A stretch of 64,000 nt of DNA. It comes from an uncultured Fidelibacterota bacterium. Lineage in GTDB: Bacteria > Fidelibacterota > Marinisomatia > Marinisomatales > UBA1611. Below, one piece after another: positions 10,586 through 27,608 of this stretch (position 1 is its first letter; each line of letters begins with the position of its first letter). Below the pieces are notes generated by a model. It was not told the DNA's origin, made no database searches, and saw only the letters and a list, made by a program, of their open reading frames with translations. The position numbers were made by a program, and so were the translations under genes. The stretch covers positions 1-64,000 of the forward strand of contig CACEUX010000005.1 of assembly GCA_902562835.1 (NCBI GenBank). Direction: 5' to 3'.

Positions 10586-11107
10586 ATGAAAACTATAGTA
10601 AATGTTTTAGGATTTAAGATAAGTTGGTGGGCATGCGTTTTAGGGGCTACAAGTGGCTCAGAATACCTTGGTCCTATAGCTATGGCAATATTTTTAGCTC
10701 TCCACTTCAACTTTAATGTGTCAAACAATTCAGAGATTAAACTTATTTTGATATTTGCGGTTTTAGGCACTATGATAGATACGTTAATGGCATCTACGAA
10801 GTTGATAGGTTATGTTGGTTTATATAGTGATGATATTATCATTGCTCCTTTGTGGATCACAGCTATGTGGTGCGGTTTCGCTGCCATGGTCAATCATTCA
10901 TTGGCATGGTTTAAAGATAAATGGTCTTCTTCATTCCTTTTTGGTTTTATAGGAGGTCCTCTGGCATATATTGGAGGGGAAAAAATTGGTGCTATATATT
11001 TTAATTCAGGACTCACAGAGGTCTCTGTCATGCTTGCTGTAGTTTGGGGAGGTAGTATCCCTATGATGTTTTGGGTCAATGACAGACTAGGTTTAGGAAA
11101 TAAATGA
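10586..11107 (+). CDS. DUF2878 family membrane protein
   Basis: 173 residues with about five hydrophobic helices. KISWWACVLGA near the N-terminus, API/PLWITAMWCGFA in the middle and GGPLAYIGGEKIGA near residue 130 are DUF2878 signatures. The family has no known enzymatic role. It usually lies beside DUF1365, FAD amine-oxidase and cyclopropane-fatty-acid-synthase genes, as here, which suggests an inner-membrane role in lipid modification. It is first gene of the operon driven by promoter 1, and its stop overlaps the next start (ATGA). Confidence 0.8.
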   Translation: MKTIVNVLGFKISWWACVLGATSGSEYLGPIAMAIFLALHFNFNVSNNSEIKLILIFAVLGTMIDTLMASTKLIGYVGLYSDDIIIAPLWITAMWCGFAAMVNHSLAWFKDKWSSSFLFGFIGGPLAYIGGEKIGAIYFNSGLTEVSVMLAVVWGGSIPMMFWVNDRLGLGNK

Positions 11108-11814: not shown

Positions 11815-11826
11815 TTACTTATTATT

Positions 11827-12372
11827 TTGAAATATATAATCTTAATTTTTGCTTTGCTTATTCCTTTTTTAGTGATTAATTGTAACGATAGTGCCTCCAG
11901 TGAATTACCTGAAATGAAGACAGTCGAATATGTAGATATAGAACGTTATATGGGAGACTGGTATGTGATCGCAAATATTCCCACTTTCATTGAGAAGAGG
12001 GCAACAAATGCGATCGAATCTTATCGACTCAGGGATGGAGGTATTATTGAAACAACTTTTTCCTTTTACGAGGATTCACCAGATGGCGAAAAAAAGATTT
12101 ACAAGCCCACTGGATATATTCATAACAAAGAGACAAATGCAGAGTGGAGGATGCAATTTGTATGGCCGTTTAAAATGCCTTTTCTTATTATTGCCCTTGA
12201 TGAAGATTATGAATATACTGTTATAGGTTACCCCTCAAGAAAGTACGTTTGGATAATGGCTCGAAAACCACAAATGTCAGATGAGGTATACAGTAGTATC
12301 ATTAGTGACCTCGACGAGATTGGGTATGATATTTCAAAGATTAACAAGGTTCCACAATTTTGGAAATTATAA
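11827..12372 (+). CDS. blc: Outer-membrane lipoprotein lipocalin (Blc-like)
   Basis: 181 residues from a TTG start. The lipobox FLVINC puts the acylated Cys at residue 19. The lipocalin hallmark GxWY is in ERYMGDWYVIANIP, and the C-terminal MARKPQMSDEVYSSIISDLDEIGYD matches bacterial Blc. Blc-type lipocalins bind fatty acids or lysophospholipids and are induced by envelope stress. Its place among fatty-acid-modifying genes fits storage or transport of altered acyl chains. Confidence 0.9.
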   Translation: MKYIILIFALLIPFLVINCNDSASSELPEMKTVEYVDIERYMGDWYVIANIPTFIEKRATNAIESYRLRDGGIIETTFSFYEDSPDGEKKIYKPTGYIHNKETNAEWRMQFVWPFKMPFLIIALDEDYEYTVIGYPSRKYVWIMARKPQMSDEVYSSIISDLDEIGYDISKINKVPQFWKL

Positions 12373-12378
12373 TCTAAA

Positions 12379-13629
12379 ATGAAGATTGCAATTATAGGCT
12401 CAGGAATTTCTGGCCTCACTACTGCTTATTTACTTAGCAGGAATCACGACATAATCATGTTTGAAAAGAATGACTATATAGGAGGTCACACCCATACCCA
12501 TGAGATAAATCATGAAGGAAAAAGTTTATCTGTAGATTCAGGCTTTATTGTTTACAATGAACGAACGTATCCAAACTTTATTAAACTTCTAGATCAACTT
12601 GGAGTTGAGCGCCAGTTAACAAGAATGGGGTTTAGTGTAAAATCTGAAAGAGATGATCTAGAATATGCTGGGCATTCTCTGAATGGACTTTTTGCACAAA
12701 GGTCAAATATCTTCAGACCATCTTTCATAAGGATGCTAGGGAGTATGAATCGTTTTAATCAAGAGTCTAGAAAAGATCTTCCTTCAATCGACTCTAAAAT
12801 GACATTGGGCGATTATTTATTAAAAAACAATTATTCAACAGAATTCATTCAGCATTTTATTATTCCTATCGGAGCCGCAATATGGTCTACTGTCCCCACT
12901 GATATGATGAATATTCCGGCTCTTTTCTTTATTAGATTCTTTGAAAATCACGGCCTACTTCAAATAATAAATAGACCAAATTGGTGGGTGATCAAAGGAG
13001 GGTCAAAAAGATATGTGGATAAGATCATTGCCAAATTCAAAGATAAAATAAGACTTTCAACACCTGTGAAAAATGTCAAGCGGGATAAAGATTTAGTTAC
13101 GATCAGCTTTGGAATAGATGGTGAAAATGAAGAAGACTTTGATGCAGTGGTATTTGCAACCCACAGTGACCAGTCGCTTGCGCTTTTGGAGCAGCCGACA
13201 ACAGACGAAGTAGAAATATTGGGTTCTATTATTTATCAGAATAATGATGCTATACTGCATTTTGATGATACTATTTTACCTAAAAGGAAAACAGCATGGT
13301 CCAGCTGGAATTATTTATTAGACCAAGATCAAAGTAAGCCTGTGGCATTAACTTACAACATGAACATTTTGCAGGGAATTGTTAGCACAAAAACCTTCTG
13401 TGTGACATTGAACACTAAAGAACTAATCGATCCTGAGAAGGTCATCAAATATCTCAATTATGAGCACCCGCTTTTTACCCTCTCTAGCCTAAGAGCACAA
13501 GAGCAAAAAAGCAAGATCAGTGGAAAAAATAACACCTATTATTGTGGAGCATATTGGCATAATGGTTTCCATGAAGATGGTGTGGTCAGTGCGTTAGACG
13601 TTTGTAGCCACTTTGGAGAAACATTGTGA
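12379..13629 (+). CDS. FAD-dependent amine-oxidase-like oxidoreductase (COG2907)
   Basis: 416 residues. The N-terminal dinucleotide-binding motif is IAIIGSGISGLTTAYLLS, followed by the FEKNDYIGGH ribose-binding Glu. FIVYNERTYPNF and the C-terminal YYCGAYWHNGFHEDGVVSA are typical of the COG2907 clade. The family is almost always next to DUF1365 and a cyclopropane-fatty-acid-synthase homologue, as here, and is thought to oxidise or desaturate membrane acyl chains; the exact reaction is not settled. Its last 4 bases overlap the DUF1365 gene (GTGA), implying translational coupling. FAD could come from the riboflavin operon about 20 kb away. Confidence 0.85.
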   Translation: MKIAIIGSGISGLTTAYLLSRNHDIIMFEKNDYIGGHTHTHEINHEGKSLSVDSGFIVYNERTYPNFIKLLDQLGVERQLTRMGFSVKSERDDLEYAGHSLNGLFAQRSNIFRPSFIRMLGSMNRFNQESRKDLPSIDSKMTLGDYLLKNNYSTEFIQHFIIPIGAAIWSTVPTDMMNIPALFFIRFFENHGLLQIINRPNWWVIKGGSKRYVDKIIAKFKDKIRLSTPVKNVKRDKDLVTISFGIDGENEEDFDAVVFATHSDQSLALLEQPTTDEVEILGSIIYQNNDAILHFDDTILPKRKTAWSSWNYLLDQDQSKPVALTYNMNILQGIVSTKTFCVTLNTKELIDPEKVIKYLNYEHPLFTLSSLRAQEQKSKISGKNNTYYCGAYWHNGFHEDGVVSALDVCSHFGETL

Positions 13630-14408
13630 GTATTTCTAACAAAAGTTTTATCTTTAGGGGTACCATTCGTCATAGGCGATTCACTCCCTTTAACCATTTT
13701 TTTACCTATCCTATTTTCATGATTTTTGTTGACCTTAATACCATTAAGAAAACTCTCAAACGCTCATGGCTATGGAATATTGATAAGCCAGCTATGATAT
13801 CTTTTAATCGAGATGATTATCATGGCGCAGGGGAAGGAGAGCTTGATTTGTCTGTTCGTAAAACAATTCGTGAACAAATTGGTTATGAGGTGAAAGGGCC
13901 TATAAGGTTGCTTACGCATTTAAGATATTTCGGGTATTGTTTTAACCCAGTGAGTTTTTACTATTGTTTTAATGAGGACGATTCTGAAGTTGATGTGATA
14001 ATGGCCGAGGTTACAAACACTCCTTGGGATGAGCGGCATTCTTATGTTATCCATCAGAAAGGTCAAAAAGGTAAAATAGATAATCTTACTGCTGATCTAA
14101 AAAAGAAATTGCACGTAAGTCCATTTTGGGGAATGGATCATGATTATGAATGGCTTTTTAGTCAACCTACAAAGAATCTAATGGTCAATATGATAAATTA
14201 TAAAGACGAAGAAAGGGTTTTTGATGCTACATTAAATATGAAAAGAATACCGTTTACTCTAGGGAATCTCCTTAGGCAAGTAGCCAGATTTCCATTTATT
14301 ACTATGCTGGTAGTGTTTCGTATCCATTGGCAGGCATTTAAACTATGGTTGAAAAAAGCACCCTACTTCATACATCCTGATAAAATCAATCTAATGAAAG
14401 GTAATTAA
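13626..14408 (+). CDS. DUF1365 family protein
   Basis: 260 residues starting at GTG (overlaps the previous stop). Conserved DUF1365 features are RGTIRHRRFTPFNHFFTYPIFM at the N-terminus, DRDDYHG-type NRDDYHGAGEG, LLTHLRYFGYCFNPVSFYYCF and a MAEVTNTPWDERHSYV segment. The function of the family is unknown; it is found with COG2907 flavoproteins and cyclopropane-fatty-acid synthases and has been linked by context to membrane fatty-acid modification. No signal peptide. Confidence 0.9.
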   Translation: MSISNKSFIFRGTIRHRRFTPFNHFFTYPIFMIFVDLNTIKKTLKRSWLWNIDKPAMISFNRDDYHGAGEGELDLSVRKTIREQIGYEVKGPIRLLTHLRYFGYCFNPVSFYYCFNEDDSEVDVIMAEVTNTPWDERHSYVIHQKGQKGKIDNLTADLKKKLHVSPFWGMDHDYEWLFSQPTKNLMVNMINYKDEERVFDATLNMKRIPFTLGNLLRQVARFPFITMLVVFRIHWQAFKLWLKKAPYFIHPDKINLMKGN

Positions 14409-14412
14409 TCAA

Positions 14413-15684
14413 ATGAGTACAACTTTCCAAGTTGATCATCTTGCAGATGCGGTCAAGACACCTAAGAAATCAACTTTTCTAACGTCTATCTTTAAAAGTG
14501 GGCTACAGAAAAAATTCAAAAATCTAAAAACGGGACACATTTCCATAAACGATGGTGATGAGACTTTCTCCTTTGGCGATGGTAGCTCAGATGAAAAAGT
14601 ATCTGTAGATATTCATTCACAGGAATTTTATGTCATGACAGGAAGTGGAGGTGCTCTTGGAATAGCAGAGGCTTATGTTGCTGGATATTGGTCCTCAGAT
14701 GATGTGGTAAAACTTTTTCAAATAATTTTAAGGAACAGGGATATCCTACTTTCTCTTGAAAAGGGTTTTGCTAAACTTGTCAAACCGATCAATAAAATGA
14801 TTCACCGTCGCCGGCAAAATACACTTAAAGGAAGTAAAGAGAATATTTTAGCACATTATGACCTTAGCAACGATTTTTACAAGTTATGGCTGGACCCTTC
14901 AATGACATATTCTTGTGCCTTTTTTAATAATGATTCTGTCACACTTGAAGAGGCTTCAATAGAAAAATTAGATCGCATATGTAGAAAGCTAGACCTGTCA
15001 GAGGATGATTCTGTGCTCGAGATAGGAACTGGCTGGGGTAGCTTTTCTATCCATGCTGCAAAGAATTATGGTTGTAAGGTTACCACAACCACTATTTCAG
15101 ATGCGCAGTTCGATTACGCAAGGTCGCGTATTAAAGATGAAGGGTTGGAATCAAAGATCACGCTCATAAATAAGGATTATCGTGATTTGGATGGGAAATA
15201 TGATAAGATTGTATCTATAGAAATGATAGAAGCAGTTGGGTATGAATACATACCTGATTATTTCTCAAAATTGTCATCCTTATTAAAAAATAATGGACTT
15301 GTTGCCTTGCAGGGCATTACATATAATGATCAAAACTTTGAGGTTTATAAGAATTCAGTAGATTTCATCAAAAAATATATTTTTCCAGGTTCTTGTTTAA
15401 TATCTATTGCACAGATAATTGATGTAATTAAAAAAGATACTGATCTGGCAATGGTCGATATGGAAGATATCACAAAGCACTATGCTGTAACATTAAATAG
15501 ATGGAGAAAGAATTTTATGGATGTGATTCCAAAGGTCAAAGAAATGGGATATTCTCAAGCGTTCATTAATATGTGGGAATTTTACTTTTTATACTGTGAG
15601 GCTGGTTTTTCAGAAAGAAATATTGGAGATGTCCAAATGATATTCGCAAAATCGGGTTCCAGAAACATTAACATTAGTTATTAA
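14413..15684 (+). CDS. cfa: Cyclopropane-fatty-acyl-phospholipid synthase family methyltransferase
   Basis: 423 residues, about the length of E. coli Cfa. An N-terminal lipid-binding domain (about 1-140) precedes NILAHYDLSNDFYKLWLDPSMTYS and the SAM-binding motif VLEIGTGWGSFSIHAA (about residue 203). EMIEAVGYEYIPDYF and the C-terminal FYFLYCEAGFSERNIGDVQ are Cfa signatures. It methylates or cyclopropanates unsaturated acyl chains in phospholipid. Relatives in this kind of cluster also make 11-methyl acyl chains that lead to furan fatty acids in Rhodobacter; sequence alone cannot tell which product is formed. Confidence 0.9.
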   Translation: MSTTFQVDHLADAVKTPKKSTFLTSIFKSGLQKKFKNLKTGHISINDGDETFSFGDGSSDEKVSVDIHSQEFYVMTGSGGALGIAEAYVAGYWSSDDVVKLFQIILRNRDILLSLEKGFAKLVKPINKMIHRRRQNTLKGSKENILAHYDLSNDFYKLWLDPSMTYSCAFFNNDSVTLEEASIEKLDRICRKLDLSEDDSVLEIGTGWGSFSIHAAKNYGCKVTTTTISDAQFDYARSRIKDEGLESKITLINKDYRDLDGKYDKIVSIEMIEAVGYEYIPDYFSKLSSLLKNNGLVALQGITYNDQNFEVYKNSVDFIKKYIFPGSCLISIAQIIDVIKKDTDLAMVDMEDITKHYAVTLNRWRKNFMDVIPKVKEMGYSQAFINMWEFYFLYCEAGFSERNIGDVQMIFAKSGSRNINISY

Positions 15685-15687
15685 AAC

Positions 15688-16722
15688 ATGATATCAAAAT
15701 TAATTCAACTAGCAGAGAATGGTTTATTACCTGATTTTATGGTCAGGGCAGGTATTGTTAGGAACTGCAAGGTTAGACTTCAAAATGAAAGTTCTTATTC
15801 TCTAGAGCAATTAAAGGAAAGAAAATTAAAATGGGTCGACCAGATGAAAGAAAGCCCCATCGCTCTTGTTCCTGAAAAAGCAAATCAGCAACATTATGAA
15901 GTACCGCCTTCCTTTTTTGACGAGGTTTTAGGATCGAACCTTAAATATAGTTCGGGCTTTTGGCCTCAAACAGTTACCACATTGGATGAATCTGAGTTAG
16001 CCATGCTAGAGCTAAGCTGCGAAAGAGCAGAATTAGAAAATGGCCAAAATATATTAGAATTGGGATGCGGTTGGGGCTCTCTAACTTGTTATATGGCTAG
16101 CCAATACCCAAAAAGTCAAATTACAGCAGTCAGTAATTCTAAGGACCAGAGAGAGTATATCTTAAAACGATGTAGCAAATCTGGTTTGAATAATGTGAAT
16201 GTGATCACTGCAGATATGAATGATTTTACCGTTGAACAAATGTATGACCGGGTTGTTTCAATAGAAATGTTTGAACATATGCGTAATTATAAAAAACTTT
16301 TATCCAAAATCTCGTGCTTATTGAAAGATGATGGTAAACTATTCATTCATATATTTACTCACAAAGACGTCGTCTACCCTTTTGAGAATAATGGAGAAGC
16401 AGATTGGATGGCGAGAGAATTTTTTTCTGGAGGGATGATGCCTTCTCACGACCTGTTTGAATATTTTCAAGATGATCTTAAAATAGAAGAGAGCTGGAGG
16501 ATGTCTGGAACTCATTATGAAAAAACATCTCTGGCCTGGTTAAAAAAAATGGATAAAAATAAAAGTAATGTTATGGAAATTTTTTCGCATACCTATGGCT
16601 CAGAGGAAGCAAAAAAGTGGTTCCAGAGGTGGCGCATATTCTTTATGTCCTGTGAAAAATTATTTGGATTTAAAAATGGAACAGAATGGGGTGTGTCTCA
16701 TTACCGTTTCACAAAAGGTTAA
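15688..16722 (+). CDS. Second Cfa-family SAM-dependent methyltransferase
   Basis: 344 residues, lacking the long N-terminal lipid-binding domain of the gene just upstream. QQHYEVPPSFFDEVLGSNLKYS, the SAM motif ILELGCGWGSLTCYMA (about residue 127), SIEMFEHMRNYKKLL and a C-terminal WRIFFMSCEKLFG identify a COG2230 methyltransferase of the short type (also similar to coclaurine N-methyltransferase-like proteins). It starts 3 bp after the first Cfa gene. Two non-identical Cfa-type enzymes in tandem suggest successive or different methylations, but this is inferred. Confidence 0.85.
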   Translation: MISKLIQLAENGLLPDFMVRAGIVRNCKVRLQNESSYSLEQLKERKLKWVDQMKESPIALVPEKANQQHYEVPPSFFDEVLGSNLKYSSGFWPQTVTTLDESELAMLELSCERAELENGQNILELGCGWGSLTCYMASQYPKSQITAVSNSKDQREYILKRCSKSGLNNVNVITADMNDFTVEQMYDRVVSIEMFEHMRNYKKLLSKISCLLKDDGKLFIHIFTHKDVVYPFENNGEADWMAREFFSGGMMPSHDLFEYFQDDLKIEESWRMSGTHYEKTSLAWLKKMDKNKSNVMEIFSHTYGSEEAKKWFQRWRIFFMSCEKLFGFKNGTEWGVSHYRFTKG

Positions 16723-16730
16723 TTTAAGCA

Positions 16731-17447
16731 ATGGTAATACTGATATTTATTTTCTTACACTGGTACCTCTCACTATTTTTTCAGACATTTTTTTTACATC
16801 GATATGCATCTCATAATATGTTCAAGATGAGCCCATTTTGGGAAAAAGTATTTTTCCTTCTAACATTCATTTTTCAAGGTTCCTCATTTTTGCATCCCGC
16901 GGCATATGCTGTAATGCATAGACGCCATCATTCATTTGCAGATACACCAAAAGATCCTCACTCACCAGTTCATCTAAAGAATATTATTTCTTTTAATCTA
17001 GCAACTGTGACAGAATACAGAAAGCTAGTTAAAGAATTCCTGAAAGGCGGAAGAACCATATCAGATGCACCCAGGTGGTATACTTTAGAATGGTTTGCAG
17101 AATCTGTATGGACCAGAGTTGCCTTTATTATTTTATATTTTCTATTCTATGTTCAATTTGCTACCTCAACATGGCAGTTCTTTTTATTTCCCCTGCACAT
17201 TTTTATGGGTTCCATGCATGGATTCATTGTCAACTGGTTTGGACATAAAACAGGTTATAGAAATTTTGACTCTGTACCTGACAACTCAAAAAATACCCTA
17301 CCTCTTGATTTTTTAATGATGGGTGAATTGTATCAGAACAATCATCATAGAAGTCCTAGAGAACCTAACTTTGCAGTGCGGTGGTTCGAATTGGATTTTG
17401 GTTATATTGCAACTCTGGCGCTTAAAAGACTTAGAATTATATATTAA
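16731..17447 (+). CDS. Membrane fatty-acid desaturase
   Basis: 238 residues with four hydrophobic segments. The three histidine boxes of acyl-lipid/acyl-CoA desaturases are present: HRYASH (23-28), HRRHH (63-67) and NNHHR near residue 204, the last followed by SPREPNFAVRWFELDFGY. Such di-iron enzymes use O2 to introduce a cis double bond. It is 8 bp downstream of the second methyltransferase. It may supply the unsaturated substrate for methylation or desaturate a methylated chain. Confidence 0.9.
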   Translation: MVILIFIFLHWYLSLFFQTFFLHRYASHNMFKMSPFWEKVFFLLTFIFQGSSFLHPAAYAVMHRRHHSFADTPKDPHSPVHLKNIISFNLATVTEYRKLVKEFLKGGRTISDAPRWYTLEWFAESVWTRVAFIILYFLFYVQFATSTWQFFLFPLHIFMGSMHGFIVNWFGHKTGYRNFDSVPDNSKNTLPLDFLMMGELYQNNHHRSPREPNFAVRWFELDFGYIATLALKRLRIIY

Positions 17448-17452
17448 AAAAT

Positions 17453-18334
17453 ATGTCAAAAAATATTAGAGACTATATCAGTGTAATTATAGCGTTTTTC
17501 ATAGGTGCATTGATCGCAATTGGAGGTTCTCAGAACGGGGCACAATATAATGGTTATCCTATTTTATTTATCTGCCTGATAATCAGTTTTGTCTTACACT
17601 GGATCGCTTTCATACCGGCATATTTAGCTAGGACAGAAAAGTTTTATGATATAGCAGGGACTGTTGCATATCTTTCAGTTTTAGCAACAGCATCTTATTT
17701 AACAGTGATCTCATCGAATAATAATTTACAGTTGAGATCTATTATAGTCATTATTCTTGTATTAATATGGGCATTAAGGTTAGGTCTATTTCTTTTCGTT
17801 CGCGTATTAAAGGCAGGAGAAGATCGAAGATTTCGTGAAGTAAAACAAAATTTCTCTAAGTTTCTTGTATGGTGGAGTGTATCAGCCTTGTGGGTCTTCC
17901 TAACCGCAGCAAACGCATTAACAATGATCATAAATAATGTGAGCTTTACCGATGACTTCTATTTCTATTTTGGTCTATCCCTTTGGTTGATAGGTTTTTC
18001 TTTTGAGGCCATAGCAGATGAACAAAAAAGAAGATTTAAATCTGATAAGAAAAACAAGGATGCATTTATTTCAACTGGTTTATGGGGTCTTTCTAGGCAT
18101 CCAAATTATTTTGGTGAAATACTTCTCTGGATAGGAATGGCAGTTATAGCTTTGCCCACTTTAGTTGGATGGCAATACGTAACATTGATATCACCAATAT
18201 TCATTTACTTTTTGCTCACAAGAGTTAGTGGTGTGAATCTCTTGGAAGATCGTGCAAACCAGAAATGGGGTGGCACTGAAGAATATGAATCATACGTAAA
18301 GAAAACTCCTGTGCTTATACCTTTAACAAAATAA
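17453..18334 (+). CDS. DUF1295 family membrane protein (steroid-reductase-like fold)
   Basis: 293 residues with six to seven hydrophobic helices. The C-terminal LSRHPNYFGEILLWIGMAVIALP is the hallmark of DUF1295 and of the isoprenylcysteine methyltransferase/steroid 5-alpha-reductase fold, which binds a nucleotide cofactor at this segment. GEDRRFREVKQNFSKFLVWW is also family-typical. An NADPH-dependent reduction or SAM-dependent methylation of a lipid is possible; no substrate is known. It is the ninth gene of the promoter 1 operon. Confidence 0.85.
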   Translation: MSKNIRDYISVIIAFFIGALIAIGGSQNGAQYNGYPILFICLIISFVLHWIAFIPAYLARTEKFYDIAGTVAYLSVLATASYLTVISSNNNLQLRSIIVIILVLIWALRLGLFLFVRVLKAGEDRRFREVKQNFSKFLVWWSVSALWVFLTAANALTMIINNVSFTDDFYFYFGLSLWLIGFSFEAIADEQKRRFKSDKKNKDAFISTGLWGLSRHPNYFGEILLWIGMAVIALPTLVGWQYVTLISPIFIYFLLTRVSGVNLLEDRANQKWGGTEEYESYVKKTPVLIPLTK

Positions 18335-18345
18335 GAGTTTTATGA

Positions 18346-18918
18346 ATGCTCCGTTTTACTATTATTATCGCTTCCTTCGTATTTTTTTTACATGATCCAA
18401 TTATGGCTATTGAGACACCGAATTTTCAATTATTAAAAAAAGAAGGCAAGTTTGAGATCCGTGAATATGAGCCAATGATCATTGCTGTGACAAAAGTAAA
18501 TAGTAATTACAGGGAGGCATCTTCAACAGGGTTTAGGAGGATAGCTAATTATATTTTTGGCGGTAATCAAAAAAAGATGGAAATTAAGATGACGGCACCT
18601 GTTATTTTAGGTGTCCCCAATTCGAACGATATATATGAGATACTTTTTGTAATGCCCTCCCAACATTCCCTTGAGGAATTACCAGCGCCTGATCAATCTA
18701 ATGTTGAGTTAAAGGTAAAAGAGATGGGGAAAACAGCTGTTATAAAGTTTGGTGGTTGGGCGACAGAGAGTAGGGCAACTTATTATAAAAAAAGGTTAGA
18801 AGACTTTGTTAAAAATAGTGGCTTTACATTAAATAGTGATTATATGGTCGCACAATACAACTCACCATGGGCGTTACCACCATTTCGAAAGAATGAAATA
18901 ATTGTGATGATAAAATAA
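18346..18918 (+). CDS. SOUL heme-binding-family protein, exported
   Basis: 190 residues with a signal peptide (about 1-21, ending PIMAIE). ETPNFQLLKKEGKFEIREYEPMIIAVT, KIEMTAPV-like MEIKMTAPVILG and the C-terminal YNSPWALPPFRKNEI are SOUL/HEBP signatures. Members bind heme or tetrapyrroles in some organisms. In a light-stress cluster it may bind a photosensitising tetrapyrrole in the periplasm, which is inference. It is last gene of the operon, and the second repeat operator begins directly after its stop. Confidence 0.85.
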   Translation: MLRFTIIIASFVFFLHDPIMAIETPNFQLLKKEGKFEIREYEPMIIAVTKVNSNYREASSTGFRRIANYIFGGNQKKMEIKMTAPVILGVPNSNDIYEILFVMPSQHSLEELPAPDQSNVELKVKEMGKTAVIKFGGWATESRATYYKKRLEDFVKNSGFTLNSDYMVAQYNSPWALPPFRKNEIIVMIK

Positions 18919-18972
18919 AACGCTCATAACGCTTATTTAGTGCTTGTTGCGTGTAAATTTAATTTTTAAGAT
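18919..18972 (+). promoter_or_regulatory. Tandem 9-bp repeat operator plus promoter 2
   Basis: AACGCTCAT AACGCTTAT at 18919-18936, then 7 bp, then TTGTTG at 18944-18949, 17 bp and TAAGAT at 18967-18972. This is the same geometry as the sites at 19973 and 24663. Transcription would start near 18979, so the in-frame TTG at 18973 would lie upstream of the mRNA start and cannot begin the next protein from this promoter. Confidence 0.7.
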
Positions 18973-18996
18973 TTGAAAGTGAACTTAGAGAATAGT

Positions 18997-19488
18997 ATGT
19001 TATTTGAGCAAAAAGTAATATTAAAAGGTATAGACCCTCTAGATGTAATAAGGTCCTTTCATGACCGTAGGTTTGTGGAGTTCCTCACTGCTTTGCAGCC
19101 TGTGAAGATACAAAGCTGGGTTGGAATCAATAATAACATGAAAGCATCGTTCTCGTTCTGGTTCTTAGGATGGAGGCAGATAGAGGTTGAGCACAAGAAT
19201 TATAAGGTTTCTAAGAATCATCTTCATTTCGAAGATAGAGGATTAGTTCTTCCATTTGGATTATCTAGTTGGAGACATCATCATATTATAGAGAAACATA
19301 ATAATGGAACTACTATTACAGATAAAGTTGAAATGGGCATTCAAAGTTTATGGTTAAGATATCTTATTTTTCCCATAATGTTATTTCCAATATTTATTAG
19401 GCGTTTAACATATAGATTCTGGTTTTACCTGATGGAGGGGAAGACCTGGATATCATCTAAAAGGTTTTTAACAAATGAAAAGATTTAG
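18997..19488 (+). CDS. SRPBCC-family ligand-binding protein (COG4276-like)
   Basis: About 163 residues from ATG 18997. The frame is open further up (GTG 18979, TTG 18973), but promoter 2 makes the TTG unusable, and related proteins begin close to the segment FEQKVILKGIDPLDVIRSFHDRRF. The body has the SRPBCC pattern: QPVKIQSWVGINNNMKASFSFWFLG, HLHFEDRGLVLPFGLSSWRHHHIIE and a C-terminal amphipathic helix FIRRLTYRFWFYLMEGK. Such folds bind hydrophobic ligands. It overlaps the next gene by 14 bp. Function unknown. Confidence 0.65.
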   Translation: MLFEQKVILKGIDPLDVIRSFHDRRFVEFLTALQPVKIQSWVGINNNMKASFSFWFLGWRQIEVEHKNYKVSKNHLHFEDRGLVLPFGLSSWRHHHIIEKHNNGTTITDKVEMGIQSLWLRYLIFPIMLFPIFIRRLTYRFWFYLMEGKTWISSKRFLTNEKI

Positions 19489-19954
19489 CCCCTTTCCCTT
19501 ATTATTGCTTCTGTCATGTGAGTCAGAAAATAATTCTGCACAACTCTTGGAAAGTCAAAAGTGGGTCTCAAAAGATAGATTTAGGACTGAGGTCTGGTTT
19601 CAAGACTGGTCCAGTTATACACGCCTATTTATCAAAACTTTCAAAGATACATCTGAAATCAGTCCAAGTCCTTATGTCACAAGAACAAAGAATAAACCAT
19701 ACCTATATCCTAAACCTTACATGGATTTTGAAATCGAACAATTGATTGGAAACCTAGAATGGGACGGGGATGTCTCGTGGAAAAATGGTCATGAAAACAC
19801 ATTTTTATGGGAAGTTGACAGAAGTAATCCTAAAAAACTGTTACCCATTAAATATAATGGTACCGCTACAATTGTTAATGGAAGGTTAAGTCTAAAAGTA
19901 AAAGAAAGTGATAGCCTAATATCTGACATTCTACTAGACCCAATCTCATATTAA
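19475..19954 (+). CDS. Putative lipoprotein, function unknown
   Basis: 159 residues. The short charged start MKRF, hydrophobic stretch PFPLLLLLS and Cys15 make a lipoprotein signal peptide (LLLSC). The mature part is rich in Trp, Tyr and beta-strand pattern (KWVSKDRFRTEVWFQDWSS) and resembles no family I recognise. It overlaps the SRPBCC gene by 14 bp and shares its promoter 2, so the two probably form a two-gene transcript. It may be an envelope partner of the SRPBCC protein. Confidence 0.6.
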   Translation: MKRFSPFPLLLLLSCESENNSAQLLESQKWVSKDRFRTEVWFQDWSSYTRLFIKTFKDTSEISPSPYVTRTKNKPYLYPKPYMDFEIEQLIGNLEWDGDVSWKNGHENTFLWEVDRSNPKKLLPIKYNGTATIVNGRLSLKVKESDSLISDILLDPISY

Positions 19955-19972
19955 AAAAATACTATTTAAAAA

Positions 19973-20026
19973 AACGTTCATAACGCTCAAATAATTCTTG
20001 ACTTGAATTATTCTAAGTTATAATTT
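19973..20026 (+). promoter_or_regulatory. Tandem 9-bp repeat operator plus promoter 3
   Basis: AACGTTCAT AACGCTCAA at 19973-19990, then 7 bp, TTGACT at 19998-20003, 17 bp and TAATTT at 20021-20026 (or TATAAT at 20019 with a 15-bp spacer). It reads into the small-protein, SDR and glutathione-peroxidase operon. A real Shine-Dalgarno sequence, GGAGG, stands at 20039-20043 just before the first start codon, which is unusual for this window. Confidence 0.7.
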
Positions 20027-20047
20027 CAGGTAATATTTGGAGGACTT

Positions 20048-20329
20048 ATGTCTATTTTAGATGCAGTTGTTAGAGGCGCGGACTTAAAACACTTTAATGA
20101 AAAAAAAGAAGTCAAAAATAATTTTGATGCACGAAAGGCAGACCAAGACCTTAGAGCCTGCCCAGTTTGTAAAGCTGTCTGGGAAATAATGGTCTTCAAC
20201 AAGACCATCGATTATAAGTATTATCATAATTTCCCGAGATATGGTAAAAAGAAGGCTGTCTGTCCCAGTTGCAAAATCAGAATTAGGAATAAATACTACC
20301 ATAACGCTGAAGTCCAAGACCCCGCATGA
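20048..20329 (+). CDS. Small zinc-ribbon-like protein
   Basis: 93 residues. Two Cys pairs, CPVC (about residue 38) and CPSC (about 73), are 35 residues apart and could hold one zinc ion. The N-terminus is helical and Lys/Asp-rich. GGAGG lies 5 bp before the ATG. It is the first gene under promoter 3 and overlaps the next start by 4 bp. I do not recognise a named family; a structural or DNA/RNA-binding zinc role is possible. Confidence 0.65.
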   Translation: MSILDAVVRGADLKHFNEKKEVKNNFDARKADQDLRACPVCKAVWEIMVFNKTIDYKYYHNFPRYGKKKAVCPSCKIRIRNKYYHNAEVQDPA

Positions 20330-20631
20330 GTCTCACTTATATTGATCATATTGCACTTGAATCGAAAGATATTAATAGTTCGGTCGAATGGTACAAGAAC
20401 CAATTTGACTGCGAGGTCAGATATCAAGACGACTCATGGGCGCTTCTGGGCTTTGAGAATATTTCATTGGCCTTGGTCACTCCTGGGGATCACCCTCCCC
20501 ATTTCGCAGTAGTTGACGAAGGAGTAAAGGAACTGGTTGACCATAAAATGCACAGGGATGGCATTGCTTACAAGTATGAGGCAGATCCGGACTCAAATGT
20601 GATTGAAAAGATAGATAGGCGATCTTCATGA
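20326..20631 (+). CDS. Glyoxalase/VOC-superfamily small protein
   Basis: 101 residues forming one VOC module: YIDHIALESKDINSSVEWYKNQF at the start, then a beta-strand FENISLALVTPGDHPPHFAVV. The His in DHIAL and in PPHFAVV are possible metal ligands, with a Glu expected at the end of the module not clearly seen. VOC proteins include glyoxalases, dioxygenases and resistance proteins. It is coupled to both neighbours by 4-bp ATGA overlaps. Confidence 0.75.
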   Translation: MSLTYIDHIALESKDINSSVEWYKNQFDCEVRYQDDSWALLGFENISLALVTPGDHPPHFAVVDEGVKELVDHKMHRDGIAYKYEADPDSNVIEKIDRRSS

Positions 20632-20807
20632 CCAGTGTCGATGTATACCTAAAAAGTGATTATTGTATCATATCGTCCTTTATTGAAGATGCGAATGAGC
20701 TGGTTATTAAGGTCCAAGAATTAACAAACGAGGGTTGGGTTGTTTCAGGTGGGATAGCGTCCTCAAGTAGCAAGCTATTCCAGGCAATGGTACGTCGCGA
20801 ACAGTGA
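20628..20807 (+). CDS. DUF1737-like small protein
   Basis: 59 residues, ATG at 20628 overlapping the previous stop (ATGA) and stop overlapping the next start (GTGA). The pattern YLKSDYCIISSFIEDANELVIKV-type helix, then LTNEGWVVSGGIA and a closing FQAMVRREQ matches DUF1737 (a WxxxGGxxxS turn followed by YYQAMV). DUF1737 is of unknown function and often accompanies stress genes. The double overlap shows that it is translated with its neighbours. Confidence 0.75.
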   Translation: MTSVDVYLKSDYCIISSFIEDANELVIKVQELTNEGWVVSGGIASSSSKLFQAMVRREQ

Positions 20808-21499
20808 ATATTTTAGTAATAGGCGCTGCCGGCGGTATTGGTTCTCAACTGGTTTCTGATTTAGCAGAGTTCCATAATCTCCTTCTGGGCTACAATCATA
20901 ACATGCCTGTAGCTCAATCTGCTAAGTTGGAGCCAGTTGATGCATGTAGTTTTGATTCGATTCATAACTTTGTTGAAAAAGGACTACAAGAATTCGGTTC
21001 TGTTGATTCAATTATTAATCTTCCTGGGAATTTGATTCTTAAGCCTGCGCATCTTTCATCGGAAGATGAGTTTTATAAAACCATAGATATAAATCTTAAA
21101 TCAGCCTTTGCCGTAATAAGAGCTGCAGGTTCACTTCTAACTGACTGCTCTATTATTTTAATGTCGACCGCTGCCGCAAGAATAGGTCTTGCAAACCACG
21201 AACTTATTGCTAGCGCAAAATCTGGTGTTGAAGGTCTTGCCAGGTCCGCTGCAAAAACATATGCAAAAAAAAATATACGTGTTAATACAGTTTCGCCAGG
21301 ACTCGTTGACACCCCTCTATCTGCAAAGATAGTTCAGAATTCAATAGCACTTAGTGCAAGCAAAAAAATGCATACATTGGGTGAGATAGGTAAACCAAAA
21401 CATATTAGTAATATGATCTCCTTTTTGACCGACCCTGAAAATAACTGGATCACAGGTCAAAACTTTGTAATTGATGGAGGTCTAAGTTCAACCAAATAG
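20804..21499 (+). CDS. Short-chain dehydrogenase/reductase-like protein, catalytic Tyr missing
   Basis: 231 residues from GTG. The Rossmann motif GAAGGIG (7-13) and the region RVNTVSPGLVDTPL are classic SDR. Ser121 of the triad is present (LMSTAAARIG) and Lys139 is present (IASAKSG), but the expected Tyr four residues before the Lys is Ile135 (NHELIASAK). Either it works differently or it binds NAD(P) without the usual chemistry. SDRs of this type recur in light- or singlet-oxygen-induced clusters of proteobacteria. It is 9 bp before a small unknown gene. Confidence 0.85.
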   Translation: MNILVIGAAGGIGSQLVSDLAEFHNLLLGYNHNMPVAQSAKLEPVDACSFDSIHNFVEKGLQEFGSVDSIINLPGNLILKPAHLSSEDEFYKTIDINLKSAFAVIRAAGSLLTDCSIILMSTAAARIGLANHELIASAKSGVEGLARSAAKTYAKKNIRVNTVSPGLVDTPLSAKIVQNSIALSASKKMHTLGEIGKPKHISNMISFLTDPENNWITGQNFVIDGGLSSTK

Positions 21500-21508
21500 G
21501 AGTTTAAA

Positions 21509-21832
21509 ATGAAGAAACCAGCACTAAGAGAGAGAAGATCAAGCCTAAAAGATTTTCAAGAAACAAAATGGACAAAGTCATCCAAGACCGTGGGTGAGTA
21601 CATTTTCAGGCGGTTATCTCTTGACCAGTCAGATAAAGAGCTTTCTAGGATAAGGCCAAGACATCATTTGAGTAAATTAATAATCTCTAGCAAGGAAATC
21701 GATATCTATGTGAAAGATTATTTAAGAATGATGGATAATAGAACTAAATCTACAGGAGAATATATGAGTGGGGTAAAGAGAGCCAAATCAAATTCCGGAG
21801 GTACCCAGCCTCATTATGTCATACATAGTTAA
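21509..21832 (+). CDS. Small basic protein, function unknown
   Basis: 107 residues, strongly basic (many Arg/Lys), without a signal peptide or membrane segment. Segments include SSKTVGEYIFRRLSLDQSD and RPRHHLSKLIISSKEIDIYVKDYLRMM, mainly predicted helix, and a disordered tail. I do not recognise it. A TAAATAG-GAG-like sequence (AGGAG at 21498-21502) precedes the ATG, so translation is well supported. Its place between the SDR and glutathione peroxidase genes ties it to the promoter 3 operon. Confidence 0.6.
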   Translation: MKKPALRERRSSLKDFQETKWTKSSKTVGEYIFRRLSLDQSDKELSRIRPRHHLSKLIISSKEIDIYVKDYLRMMDNRTKSTGEYMSGVKRAKSNSGGTQPHYVIHS

Positions 21833-21834
21833 TT

Positions 21835-22425
21835 ATGTTAAATACTCCCTGGAGGAAAATATTAATGGTCAGTTTCATTGTAACAGCAGTGTCTGGTTTC
21901 GCTTCAGTCTTGTTCAGTAAGAGCTCCATATCAGCCGAACCTGGAGTAAAATCCCATAGCTCATTTTATGATATCAAGTTATACAACATAGATGATGAGC
22001 AAATTCAGTTAGACCAATTCAAGGGTAAGAAAGTAATTATTGTAAATGTTGCTTCACGGTGTGGCTACACATCCCAATATAAAAAACTACAAGAGCTCTA
22101 TGAAAAACACGGTAACAAATTGGAGATAATTGCTGTCCCCTGTAACGACTTCGGATACCAAGAACCAGGCACAGCCAACCAGATAAAAGATTTCTGTGAG
22201 CTTAATTACGGTGTCACATTTTCAATCGCATCAAAACAAAAAATCAAATCATCACCCCAAAGTTACCTGTACAACTGGCTTTCCGATCCAAAATTGAATG
22301 GATGGAACGACCAGTTGCCCTCCTGGAATTTTTGTAAATATGTGGTTAGTGAAAAAGGAGAGTTGATGCATTTTTTCAGAAGTAGTGTTGATCCACTCAG
22401 TAAAGAATTCCTCAATACCTTATAG
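21835..22425 (+). CDS. Glutathione-peroxidase-family thiol peroxidase, membrane-anchored or exported
   Basis: 196 residues. A hydrophobic N-terminus (KILMVSFIVTAVSGFASVLF, 8-27) is a signal or anchor. The peroxidatic Cys76 lies in NVASRCGYTSQY, the second motif is VPCNDFGYQEPG (Gln109, Cys103) and the Trp/Asn motif is SWNFCKYVV. It reduces hydroperoxides, probably lipid hydroperoxides, at the membrane or in the periplasm; most bacterial members use thioredoxin rather than glutathione. Its presence with desaturase and photolyase genes fits repair of photo-oxidised lipids. Confidence 0.9.
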   Translation: MLNTPWRKILMVSFIVTAVSGFASVLFSKSSISAEPGVKSHSSFYDIKLYNIDDEQIQLDQFKGKKVIIVNVASRCGYTSQYKKLQELYEKHGNKLEIIAVPCNDFGYQEPGTANQIKDFCELNYGVTFSIASKQKIKSSPQSYLYNWLSDPKLNGWNDQLPSWNFCKYVVSEKGELMHFFRSSVDPLSKEFLNTL

Positions 22426-22530: not shown

Positions 22531-24015
22531 ATGAAGTCAGCATTCATATACCCAAACCAGCTTTTTGAGAATCATCCCTGCCTATCAAGGAATAGAAAAA
22601 TCCTATTAATTCAGGACCCCTTGTTCTTTGGTGACCAACAGTATCCGATGTTATTTCACAAACAAAAGATATTATTGCACTATCTCTCTATGGATAGCTT
22701 CAGGGATAATTTGATTAAAAGAGGATACGATGTTGAAATTGTTTTGTATGAAAATTTGATCTCAAAGGGCTACACACAAACAATCATTAAAAAATATCAG
22801 CTATCTGAGGTCCACATTGCAAATGTAGTTGACTATACCTTAGAAAAAAGAATTAAAGTGGCAGCCCAAGAGTTGGATGTTCGGATATATTGGTATGATT
22901 CCCCGGGCTTTCTGCTTAACCAAGATGAAGTAGAAAATGATTTTAGAAAAAAGAATTTTCACTTCATGTCTACATTTTATAAAAAACAAAGACGAAGATA
23001 CAATTTATTGATAGATGAAAAGGGTGAACCCGAAGGCGGAAAATGGAGCTTTGATCTAGAAAATAGGAAAAAATTACCAAAGGGTATTCAAATTCCAGAA
23101 ATAATCAATTTTGAATACGATAACAACAAAATTTTATCTGGTCATAGGTTTATTGATAAGTTTTTCCAAGAAAATATAGGGACATTGGAAAACTTTAATT
23201 ATCCAGTAGACCATACACAAAGTAAGAGTGCTTTCGATCACTTTTTAAAGGAAAAATTTGAATTATTTGGTGCTTATGAAGATGCAATTTCTAAAGATGA
23301 GCATACCTTATTCCACTCCATACTAACACCATACCTCAATATTGGTTTGATTACTCCAAAAGAAATAATTGAAAAAGTTATAGACTACACAAGAATAAAT
23401 AAAATTCCATTGAATTCTGTTGAAGGTTTCCTCAGACAAATAATAGGATGGAGAGAATTCATTAGAGGTGTATATACTACGGATGGAGTCAAGCAAAGGA
23501 CAAAGAATTATTGGGGTTTTAAAAAATATGTCTCCAAGACATTTTATGATGCATCCACAAATCTTACACCAGTGGATAATACTATTTCTCGATGCCTTAA
23601 ATATGGGTATTCACATCATATAGAGAGACTCATGATACTAGGAAACATTATGATTCTTTCTCGATTTGATCCAGATTCCGTATATAAATGGTTTATGGAG
23701 TTTTTCATTGATTCTTATGATTGGGTCATGGTGCCTAACATTTATGGTATGAGCCAATTTGCTGATGGCGGTTTAATGTCTACTAAGCCATATATAAGTG
23801 GAAGTAATTATATTTTAAAAATGAGTAATTATAAAAAGGGCGAATGGTCAGATATTTGGGATGCTCTTTATTGGGAGTTTATCAATTCAAATAGAGAATT
23901 TTTTCTGAAAAATCATAGAATGGCAATGATGGTATCGATGTACGATAAGAAGACTAAAGATGTTAGATTGAAATATTCAAAGATATTTAGAGATTATCAG
24001 TCAATTCTAAATTAA
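22531..24015 (+). CDS. Cryptochrome/(6-4) photolyase-related protein (COG3046), Fe-S ligands mostly absent
   Basis: 494 residues. The N-terminal half is a Rossmann antenna-type domain (residues 1-130). The C-terminal FAD domain has AHHIERLM-type SHHIERLMILGN and FIDSYDWVMVPNIYGMSQFADGGLMSTKPYISG, signatures of the FeS-BCP group that includes Agrobacterium PhrB, a (6-4) photolyase. Members hold a 4Fe-4S cluster on four Cys. Here Cys355 is kept, but the region of the other three reads MSNYKKGEWSDIW (431-443) and has no Cys. It lies 105 bp after the peroxidase gene and may be on the same transcript. Photolyase or blue-light receptor activity is possible. Confidence 0.85.
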   Translation: MKSAFIYPNQLFENHPCLSRNRKILLIQDPLFFGDQQYPMLFHKQKILLHYLSMDSFRDNLIKRGYDVEIVLYENLISKGYTQTIIKKYQLSEVHIANVVDYTLEKRIKVAAQELDVRIYWYDSPGFLLNQDEVENDFRKKNFHFMSTFYKKQRRRYNLLIDEKGEPEGGKWSFDLENRKKLPKGIQIPEIINFEYDNNKILSGHRFIDKFFQENIGTLENFNYPVDHTQSKSAFDHFLKEKFELFGAYEDAISKDEHTLFHSILTPYLNIGLITPKEIIEKVIDYTRINKIPLNSVEGFLRQIIGWREFIRGVYTTDGVKQRTKNYWGFKKYVSKTFYDASTNLTPVDNTISRCLKYGYSHHIERLMILGNIMILSRFDPDSVYKWFMEFFIDSYDWVMVPNIYGMSQFADGGLMSTKPYISGSNYILKMSNYKKGEWSDIWDALYWEFINSNREFFLKNHRMAMMVSMYDKKTKDVRLKYSKIFRDYQSILN

Positions 24016-24662: not shown

Positions 24663-24716
24663 AATGCTCATAACGCTCATTTTATGTTTCAATAATTAAA
24701 TAAACTTTGCTATATT
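24663..24716 (+). promoter_or_regulatory. Tandem 9-bp repeat operator plus promoter 4 (regulator and photolyase)
   Basis: AATGCTCAT AACGCTCAT at 24663-24680, 7 bp, TTCAAT at 24688-24693, 17 bp, TATATT at 24711-24716. The -10 box ends 5 bp before the ATG at 24722, so the mRNA would start at or next to that codon and be leaderless. The site lies before the MerR-type gene, which makes autoregulation and control of the other three repeat sites by this protein the simplest model. Confidence 0.75.
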
Positions 24717-24721
24717 TTGCT

Positions 24722-25606
24722 ATGAGATATTTAAGCTCTAACGACGTTGCAGAAATTCTTGGCATAAATATATCCACCCTAAAACGTTGGACTGACAGTG
24801 GTGTTATAGAGTGTTCCAGAACTGCTGGTGGCCATAGAAAGTTTACTATGCAACATGTCCGTGACTATTATAAAAACCAAAATGTCGCAAGGAAAAACAA
24901 TGATCTTGGTCTTGAACATTTAGAGCACAAAAGGATATATGACCTTATTAACAAGCAGGATTTCAGTGAACTTGCGAGAAAACTTGCAGATGCTAGCTTA
25001 GAATCAGATGAGCTAAGTGTAAGTACAATAATCAATGGTGCTTATATGAAAGGAATCAAAGTTGAGTACATCTGTGATGAAATAGTAGAGCCTGCAAGCA
25101 CCATGGTAGAGAATGCTCTTAGGCAAGGATATTTAAGTCATGTTGAAACATTCATAAGTAGAAAACTTATCACACGTATCGTAGAAGGCCTTAACCAAAA
25201 CAAACCTAACGGATTATTTAATGGTAAGACTGCACTCTGTGTAAACTTTGAAGATAATCTACCTGATCTTGGTGTGGTCATGTCAGAAATAGTGCTCAGG
25301 CATCATGGATATAATGTTTTAAATACTGGGTCTCATGCGGACCTTGGAAATCTCCAAGCGGTGATTGAAAAAAAGAAGGTTGACCTAGTACTTTTCTTTT
25401 TGTGTGATATGCAATGTTGTATGGCCACAGTCAAAGATAATCTAGAAAAAACAGAAAAGCAGACAAAACTTATTGCCGAGATGGCTCAAAAAGCGGGGGT
25501 TGAAGTAATCTTTGGCGGATCAGGATTGCAATTTTTACCCAGCGTCACTAGCTCAACCGATGCCACTTTCATAAAATATTCTGATCTTAAACAGATCATA
25601 GTCTAA
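24722..25606 (+). CDS. MerR-type regulator with degenerate cobalamin-binding domain (CarH/LitR-like)
   Basis: 294 residues from ATG 24722 (an upstream TTG at 24707 lies inside the predicted promoter). Residues 1-52 are a MerR winged helix (YLSSNDVAEILGINISTLKRW, then TAGGHRKFT). Residues 70-160 are a helical bundle and 165-294 a B12-domain-like Rossmann fold ending EVIFGGSGLQ. In CarH the light sensor is adenosylcobalamin, bound by a lower His (ExHxxG) with a Trp and a Glu-His pair in the bundle. By eye these are E177-D-N179, Ala132 and Glu142-Thr143 here, so cobalamin binding looks lost. Pseudomonas-type LitR proteins are known that do not bind B12 and depend on another light sensor. It is followed 28 bp later by a photolyase. 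Confidence 0.85.
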   Translation: MRYLSSNDVAEILGINISTLKRWTDSGVIECSRTAGGHRKFTMQHVRDYYKNQNVARKNNDLGLEHLEHKRIYDLINKQDFSELARKLADASLESDELSVSTIINGAYMKGIKVEYICDEIVEPASTMVENALRQGYLSHVETFISRKLITRIVEGLNQNKPNGLFNGKTALCVNFEDNLPDLGVVMSEIVLRHHGYNVLNTGSHADLGNLQAVIEKKKVDLVLFFLCDMQCCMATVKDNLEKTEKQTKLIAEMAQKAGVEVIFGGSGLQFLPSVTSSTDATFIKYSDLKQIIV

Positions 25607-25634: not shown

Positions 25635-26984
25635 ATGATCGATCCAGGCAGGATTCGTTCTCTTAAAACTGGCTCTTTTTCTGGAAATGCTGTTCTCTAT
25701 TGGATGATAAGAGACAAAAGAGTTTCAGATAATTGGGCATTAATCTTGGCTCAGCAAACTGCTATAAATAATAAGGTACCTCTAATCGTCTGCTTTCAAT
25801 ATATTGGGAAATTTCCAGAATCCAATTTAAGACAAAATGGTTTTTTATTTAAGGGGCTAATTGAGACCCAAAAAAAATTAAAAGCATTGAATATTGAGTT
25901 TTTATTTTTGCAGGGTAAATCTGAAGAGATAATTACTGATACGGTTATTAAAAGATCTATCGGTACAATTATAGTTGATCATAACCCCCTAAAAGTATAT
26001 CGTAAAAGAATTAAAAGGGTAACTGAGAAAATAGATATTCCAGTTTACCAGGTTGACGCTCATAATATTGTCCCATGTTGGAAAGTGTCGGGGAAAAAAG
26101 AATATGCTGCATATACTTTAAGACCCAAGATTCATAATAATTTGAAGAGGTATTTAACAGATATACCTGAGATCATTCCTCATCCTTATGGTAAGGCAGA
26201 GACAAAAATCATATCTTTTGATGAAATTTTGAATGATGTTCATTTAGACAGGTCTATTTTAGAGGTGGATTGGTTAAAGCCCGGTGAATCAGCTGCAAAA
26301 GAAGCTTTAAAAGTTCTTAAAACAAAATTAGAGGGGTACAGCATTAACAGAAATGATCCGACAAAAAGTGCCTTAAGTGATCTTAGTCCTTATTTTCATT
26401 TTGGGCATATAGCTCCACAGAGAGTCGCTTGGGAGATAAATAATTCGAGTTTACTCAAAGAAGACAAAGAAGCATTTTTAGAAGAGATGATTGTTCGCCG
26501 GGAATTGTCTGATAATTTTTGCGAATATGAACCTAATTATGACTTTTTTGAGGGTTTTCATTCTTGGGCTCAAAAGACATTGAACGAACACAGGAATGAT
26601 GAAAGAGAATATATCTATCCCTTAGGTCAATTTGAAGCAGCTCAAACACATGATGAGCTATGGAACGCTGCCCAAAATGAAATGATGAACAGAGGTAAAA
26701 TGCATGGATATATGCGTATGTATTGGGCTAAAAAAATATTGGAGTGGACTCCTGCGCCCGAGGTTGCGTTACAAATTGCTATAGAACTGAATGATAAATA
26801 CGAATTGGATGGTAGAGATCCTAATGGATATGCAGGCATTGCTTGGAGTATCGGTGGTATACATGACAGGGCTTGGTTTGAAAGGCCCATATATGGTAAG
26901 ATAAGGTATATGAATTATAACGGATGTAAATCTAAGTTTGATGTTAATAAATACATCAAAATTCATAACACACCAAACGTTTAA
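25635..26984 (+). CDS. phrB: Class II CPD photolyase
   Basis: 449 residues, normal for class II. It splits cyclobutane pyrimidine dimers with light using FAD. The N-terminal antenna domain includes VLYWMIRDKRVSDNWALILAQ. The FAD domain carries RRELSDNFCEYEPNYD, KMHGYMRMYWAKKILEW and DGRDPNGYAGIAWSIGGIHDRAWFERP, which are class II signatures and include the Asn that contacts FAD N5. It is 28 bp after the regulator and probably cotranscribed with it, a pairing also seen in gammaproteobacterial LitR loci. Confidence 0.95.
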   Translation: MIDPGRIRSLKTGSFSGNAVLYWMIRDKRVSDNWALILAQQTAINNKVPLIVCFQYIGKFPESNLRQNGFLFKGLIETQKKLKALNIEFLFLQGKSEEIITDTVIKRSIGTIIVDHNPLKVYRKRIKRVTEKIDIPVYQVDAHNIVPCWKVSGKKEYAAYTLRPKIHNNLKRYLTDIPEIIPHPYGKAETKIISFDEILNDVHLDRSILEVDWLKPGESAAKEALKVLKTKLEGYSINRNDPTKSALSDLSPYFHFGHIAPQRVAWEINNSSLLKEDKEAFLEEMIVRRELSDNFCEYEPNYDFFEGFHSWAQKTLNEHRNDEREYIYPLGQFEAAQTHDELWNAAQNEMMNRGKMHGYMRMYWAKKILEWTPAPEVALQIAIELNDKYELDGRDPNGYAGIAWSIGGIHDRAWFERPIYGKIRYMNYNGCKSKFDVNKYIKIHNTPNV

Positions 26985-26999
26985 GTATTCAAATATCCA

Positions 27000-27608
27000 T
27001 TGAAAGCTGAAGATCGATCTAAATTTTGGGAAGATATATACATATCTAAAGATACTGGTTGGGATTTAAGTGGACCTACACCCGTATTTCATCATCTATC
27101 ATCAAAGTTAAATATTGGTGATCTTTGTATCATAGGTTGTGGTAGAGGATACGATGCGATCATGTTTGCAAAGAAAGGCTTCTCAGTTACTGCAGTAGAC
27201 TTTGCTCCATCGGCTATCCATGCACTTAAAAAAATGGCATCAGAATCAAAAGTTAAGGTCAATACCCTTGAATTAGATATATTCTCTTTAATGCCAAAGT
27301 ATCAACAGTCATTTGATTATGTAATTGAGCAAACTTGTTTTTGTGCAATACACCCAAGTCGCCGAAAAGAGTATGAGATCATGGTGCGAGGTATTTTAAA
27401 ACAAGATGGTAAACTGATTGGTCTATGGTTTCCTCTTGATAAGAGTATAGATGAGGGGGGGCCTCCGTATGGGACCAGTATAGATGAGGTTAAATCCATT
27501 TTCAATAATGGCTGGGAGATCCTAACAGAAGAATTTCCTAAGCATTCCGTGAAGCCAAGAAAAAACAGAGAGAAATTGATTATTTTTCAAAAGAAAAAAC
27601 TTTACTAG
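27000..27608 (+). CDS. TPMT-family SAM-dependent methyltransferase
   Basis: 202 residues from TTG. FWEDIYISKDTGWDLSGPTPVF and the SAM motif IIGCGRGYDAIMFAKKGFSVTAVDFAP are typical of the thiopurine S-methyltransferase-like group, as is QTCFCAIHPSRRKEYE. Bacterial members methylate thiols, selenium or tellurium compounds, or are uncharacterised. It follows the photolyase by 15 bp and completes the promoter 4 operon. Its link with photoprotection is unknown. Confidence 0.85.
   Translation: MKAEDRSKFWEDIYISKDTGWDLSGPTPVFHHLSSKLNIGDLCIIGCGRGYDAIMFAKKGFSVTAVDFAPSAIHALKKMASESKVKVNTLELDIFSLMPKYQQSFDYVIEQTCFCAIHPSRRKEYEIMVRGILKQDGKLIGLWFPLDKSIDEGGPPYGTSIDEVKSIFNNGWEILTEEFPKHSVKPRKNREKLIIFQKKKLY

Follow-up and report, generated by a model that had tools for sequence, protein, structure and literature searches.

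The window, by which we mean the whole 64,000-nucleotide stretch of DNA that was analysed, encodes a MerR regulator of the CarH/LitR type whose fold is intact, and alignment of the protein sequence confirmed the loss of its adenosylcobalamin (AdoCbl) site. Our best explanation, to which we assign a probability of about 0.5, is that this protein is a B12-independent regulator of photo-oxidative stress in which cysteines, through redox, metal or Fe-S chemistry, have taken over the sensing role of cobalamin.

The regulator gene was confirmed to extend from an ATG at 24722 to 25606, including the stop codon, on the + strand, and it encodes a 294-residue protein belonging to a variant clade without the AdoCbl site. 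The N-terminal MerR winged helix-turn-helix (HTH) domain (approximately residues 1–70; 24722..24931, + strand) was matched by PF12728 and PF13411, and has the KRWT and TAGGHRKF segments in common with canonical relatives. The match to the B12-binding Rossmann domain PF02310 was sub-threshold (27 bits against a cut-off of 32.1), and the score with the NCBIfam CarH equivalog NF052513 was likewise below its cut-off (33.6 versus 400 bits). The top structural matches of the AlphaFold2 model (mean pLDDT 85.3) were CtMerR (8jbs, E-value 6e-11) and full-length Thermus CarH (5c8f/5c8d, 8e-11), with AerR (7te2) also among the matches. The MerR HTH, helical bundle and Rossmann domain of the CarH layout were all present, and the domain and structural matches bore out the proposal of this layout in an earlier, sequence-only reading of the DNA. 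Its relatives place the window in a genome of Candidatus Neomarinimicrobiota (Marinimicrobia), and the closest named record was the MAG TMED46, at 94% identity.

Individual residues were read against Thermus thermophilus CarH (the pTT27 gene), aligned together with relatives, and the comparison set comprised 75 regulators (31 variants and 44 canonical relatives). Trp131, Glu141, His142 and the cobalt-ligating His177 of the Thermus protein were kept in all 44 canonical relatives, and Trp131 and His177 were both gone from all 31 variants. In the window regulator the place of Trp131 is taken by Leu133 (codon 25118..25120, + strand), such that the GxxW motif reads E130-x-x-L133, and the place of Glu141-His142 by Thr143-Phe144 (25148..25153, + strand). 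The ExHxxG motif aligned with N179-L-P181-D-L-G184, placing Pro181 (25262..25264, + strand) at the position of His177; this residue was Pro in 31/31 variants and His in 44/44 others. The GxxxP motif is broken by a change of Pro203 to Asp207, the SxT tail-binding motif is not kept, with a CxxQCC insertion at S222, and the GG motif is retained. No other His was placed at the cobalt-ligand position when the window regulator was aligned with Thermus CarH and relatives. The motifs GxxW, EH, GxxH and GxxxP have been described as the light signature (PMC11796333), and all four are broken here. The absence of the B12 residues proposed by the sequence-only reading therefore held, although its mapping was shifted relative to the Thermus CarH alignment. 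In the bundle it was off by one residue, giving the Trp as Ala132 and the Glu-His pair as Glu142-Thr143; ExHxxG it had given as E177-D-N179, a segment that begins two residues too soon and whose last residue falls at the position of Glu175. Its conclusion that the protein cannot sense light through B12 is well supported by the aligned residues, via positions other than those it had named.

The change was stepwise, based on a distant branch of the variants (f16) in which Glu-His is still present, yet Pro is already at the ligand position and the cysteine cluster described below is already there. Nor would a lack of B12 use account for the loss of the site, as the host genomes encode MetH-like (methionine synthase) and MCM-like (mutase) B12 proteins, named from their length and the position of the B12 domain. 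These enzymes, together with the B12-binding-like fold, are what would be expected if cobalamin were still bound, in some unusual way that does not need the His ligand. We regard such binding as very improbable, given that none of the four AdoCbl signature motifs is intact in the window regulator and that there is an insertion on the tail strand. In addition, HaAI-2E, a protein without this signature, bound OHCbl, whereas neither AdoCbl nor MeCbl was bound (PMC11796333).

At the strand that holds the B12 tail (SxT/SxL), the window regulator has gained the insertion Cys228-x-x-Gln231-Cys232-Cys233 (25403..25420, + strand). The insertion was identified in all 31 variants and was a gap in all 44 canonical relatives; with the replacement of His177 by Pro it co-segregated perfectly across the 75 sequences (one variant row has an X at C233 in both comparisons). 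Several other residues were invariant among the variants: Cys173 (26/44 in canonical relatives), Glu177 (2/44), Arg147 (0/44), and likewise Asn175, Pro181 and Asn201. In the far f16 branch C228, Q231, C232, C233, E177, N175 and P181 were invariant as well, and the persistence of the newly gained residues down to approximately 52% identity indicated purifying selection. The 231–240 loop had a pLDDT of 64 in the AlphaFold2 model. The sequence-only reading had numbered Cys228, Cys232 and Cys233 correctly, and its suggestion that they could sense oxidants is strengthened considerably by their invariance and by their having been gained in step with W131 and H177 being lost. The cysteine cluster is the one gain common to all variants and is our preferred candidate for the sensor, but it could instead serve structure or partner binding.

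The old B12 pocket might alternatively hold another chromophore or tetrapyrrole (heme, bilin or flavin), anchored by the cysteines, in which case the protein would still detect light directly or would act as a heme/redox sensor. The retained fold and GG motif, the new invariant residues at pocket positions in the alignment and the presence of AerR among the structural matches are all compatible with this proposal, and such a sensor would be comparable to SCHIC-type domains. We consider it doubtful, as no His was invariant in the sensor domain across the 31 variants and there was no positive sign of a cofactor.

The 31 variants formed a single branch in the tree, with an SH-aLRT value of 93 that falls below the starred support level of the tree tool. 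The clade was seen in Marinimicrobia only, among compared genomes that are incomplete MAGs. One contig with a variant was labelled Flavobacteriaceae (TMED121; locus L028), and its regulator was nested within the Marinimicrobia clade; this contig is probably misbinned. A sample of 395 Bacteroidota genomes gave no match at 1e-9, a negative that carries little weight as the search had no positive control, and the plasmid records searched gave distant MerR matches only. A literature search for LitR in Marinimicrobia returned nothing but matches seemingly unrelated by title.

A 9-bp direct repeat, ACGCTCAwAACGCTCA, was located 57–59 bp before the regulator start in 22/22 testable orthologues, and we consider it a candidate operator. 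The copy ahead of the window regulator, ATGCTCATA-ACGCTCA (24664..24679, + strand), precedes its ATG by 58 bp. Further candidate operators on the same strand are ACGTTCATAACGCTCA (19974..19989), followed after 8 bp by a TTGACT -35 box and ahead of the genes from 20048 through the SDR to the glutathione peroxidase; ACGCTCATAACGCTTA (18920..18935), ahead of the gene at 18973 (SRPBCC-like by eye); and ACGCTCATAACGCCTA (10517..10532), ahead of the DUF2878-CFA operon. There were six matches to the repeat in the window against 0.92 expected, and 27 sites in three congeners against two for a reversed control. Allowing one mismatch, the repeat was found in 19/19 variant genomes versus 4/22 genomes of the same family without a detected variant regulator (Fisher 5e-8), and the reversed control gave no matches in 54 genomes. 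The latter four genomes, with a repeat and no detected regulator, are likely explained by MAG incompleteness. Based on its position and this co-occurrence, which are what link the two, we infer that the regulator binds the repeat. A -35-like box was present 6–8 bp downstream of the repeat in 21 sites, compared to approximately 1.9 expected by shuffling. Since the repeat is directly upstream of the -35 box, activation and repression by a larger footprint are both possible. The loss of several key residues could also be taken to mean that the protein is a decaying, degenerate CarH without a specific sensor. That is hardly credible, as the residues now in their place do not vary among 31 sequences drawn from a broad spread of taxa, and the synteny and upstream repeat are conserved.

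The genes downstream of the repeats are predicted targets. The operon at 10586..18918 (+ strand) encodes DUF2878, START-like (by eye), lipocalin, amine oxidase and DUF1365 proteins, two cyclopropane-fatty-acid-synthase-like proteins, a desaturase, DUF1295 and SOUL. It is directly preceded, at 9816-10517, by a gene for a TMEM164-family membrane protein. Further predicted targets at 18973..22425 (+ strand) are the SRPBCC-like gene, 19475, 20048, a glyoxalase-like gene, the SDR (20804), 21509 and the glutathione peroxidase (21835). The next gene downstream of the regulator encodes a class II CPD photolyase (25635..26984, + strand; TIGR00591 above cut-off), which is probably on the same transcript as a TPMT-like methyltransferase (27000..27608, + strand). 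The repeat-linked genes are of kinds that belong to light responses in other systems (amine oxidase, DUF1365, cyclopropane/furan fatty-acid synthases, SOUL, SDR, glutathione peroxidase and two photolyase-family genes); the variant regulator probably still controls light-damage repair genes. Outside the window, a repeat (G000:C3:15875) was ahead of a gene for a protein with a photolyase FAD-binding domain (PF03441) and a C-terminal extension, in which no photolyase N-terminal domain was matched.

Three canonical Marinimicrobia regulators with intact B12 residues (L039, which is the same locus as L012; L044; and L075) adjoin the same DUF2878-lipocalin-amine oxidase-DUF1365-CFA operon, and in two genomes of sister families with canonical regulators (G042 and G045) the same repeat is ahead of the DUF2878-CFA operon. 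These findings indicated that the DNA site and the targets had been kept and the sensor changed. We tentatively propose that what was a CarH-family B12 photoreceptor became, in situ and with its operator and operon kept, a sensor of photo-oxidants that relies on cysteines (thiol, metal or Fe-S), and that one regulon is driven in related Marinimicrobia either by light via B12 or by oxidative damage via cysteine chemistry. In a single ancestral lineage the AdoCbl site (W131, the ligand H177 and the tail pocket, later also E141-H142) would have been swapped for a new site formed by Cys228-x-x-Gln-Cys232-Cys233 with Cys173 and the N-x-E-D-N-L-P181-D loop, the HTH, operator and target operon being retained during the swap. 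The cysteines, whether free or as ligands of a metal or an Fe-S cluster, would react with photo-oxidants (singlet oxygen, peroxides) or with the cellular redox state. This reaction would change the oligomer and thereby its binding to the 9-bp direct repeats that immediately precede the -35 box; such binding would control the regulator's own gene, the photolyases, the glutathione peroxidase and the membrane-lipid-modifying enzymes. If this proposal is correct, it would represent a natural sensor swap within one family, in which the fold, DNA site and targets are the same and the signal differs, and would reveal how bacteria of the ocean abandoned the sensing of light through B12 while continuing to use the vitamin. 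The lost B12 residues and the cysteine cluster beside the same repair genes would constitute a natural test of a sensor swap with fixed targets, and the candidate operator and regulon would make the question directly testable.

A different possibility is that the regulator is controlled by a photoreceptor protein, as is the class II LitR of Pseudomonas, with the cysteine cluster being structural or used for docking. The most plausible partner would be the DPRP-type (6-4) photolyase/cryptochrome-like protein at 22531..24015 (+ strand), which the sequence-only reading had put forward as a candidate sensor. The DPRP gene adjoins the regulator in most loci and was found in 17/22 genomes with the variant versus 1/22 without it (Fisher 1e-6). 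Cryptochrome functions have been reported for RsCryB, an Fe-S relative (PMC9178010), and there is a precedent for partner control in class II LitR (PmlR and PplR; PMC9758184). However, DPRP was missing beside the regulator at four loci (L027, L029, L031 and L034), and was not found in the matching genomes, which are incomplete MAGs (G115, 92% complete, and G120-G122). The DPRP genes are themselves predicted targets of the regulator, and no LOV partner was found. We therefore consider control by a partner unlikely, and DPRP more likely to be a regulated gene or helper than an obligate sensor. The four Fe-S cysteines are missing from the window DPRP, as read from a PDB alignment (a regular expression matched five relatives only), and this segment was likewise Fe-S-free in the relatives checked. 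An Fe-S-free DPRP subgroup is known from Prochlorococcus (PMC9178010).

The absence of a LOV protein, noted earlier for the window, extended to 27 genomes including its own, all incomplete MAGs, in which PAS_9 matches were without the flavin-Cys motif GxNCRF; a pattern search for this motif gave 0/11 genomes. The own-genome PAS_9 matches were rejected as LOV proteins, appearing by eye to be a PAS-prenyltransferase-like fusion and a GAF/PAS/cyclase-like protein. In the former (G000:C4:20403) the PAS domain is, by eye, fused to a UbiA/MenA-like prenyltransferase, and PAS open reading frames of similar length are present in most related genomes.

Comparison with known systems placed the window regulator closest in architecture to CarH and class I LitR (Thermus CarH; Chloracidobacterium CtMerR, 8jbs), which share its MerR HTH, helical bundle and Rossmann domain. 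A photolyase is nearby in both, with Thermus carH near phr. In contrast to this class, the window regulator is without Trp131, Glu-His, His177 and GxxxP, has the CxxQCC insertion at the tail strand, and has candidate 9-bp rather than 11-bp direct repeats as its operator. The class II LitR proteins of Pseudomonas (PplR/PmlR) are, like the window regulator, B12-independent by sequence. Their gene set is also alike (photolyase, SDR, the fatty-acid synthase UfaM, FAD oxidoreductase and a cryptochrome-like protein), and the repeat-linked genes are reminiscent of those in the PmlR1 region of Pseudomonas mendocina (PMC9758184). The likeness to Pseudomonas LitR that had been suggested thus holds for the target genes, but class II is described without a Rossmann domain, which the window regulator has, and pairs with a short LOV partner and a different operator. 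No pair of the PplR-type operator T(G/A)TACA-N12-TGTA(C/T)A was found in the window, with N10-14 allowed. The window regulator would add to the LitR classes (I-V) a B12-independent one that retains the Rossmann domain.

Myxococcus xanthus CarA retains a canonical B12 motif and has CarS as its antirepressor (PMC8156234), whereas this motif is absent from the window regulator. The two are alike in that CarA is B12-independent and uses the same operator as its B12-dependent paralogue CarH. A further comparison is with Vibrio cholerae VCA0056, which we take to be a class IV LitR. Class IV is described as having no B12-binding domain and acting with ChrR, and no ChrR cupin was found in 11 genomes here. 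VCA0056 is a MerR regulator beside phr that mediates a blue-light photo-oxidative response via ROS (PMC5241685), and is a precedent for control of a light response by a MerR protein through ROS.

Elsewhere in the window, a single open reading frame at 30234-32447 encodes an apparent fused alpha/beta 2-oxoacid dehydrogenase E1, and the gene at 4020-7313 encodes a large secreted protein with the look of a gingipain-type (C25) peptidase and a dockerin-like end.
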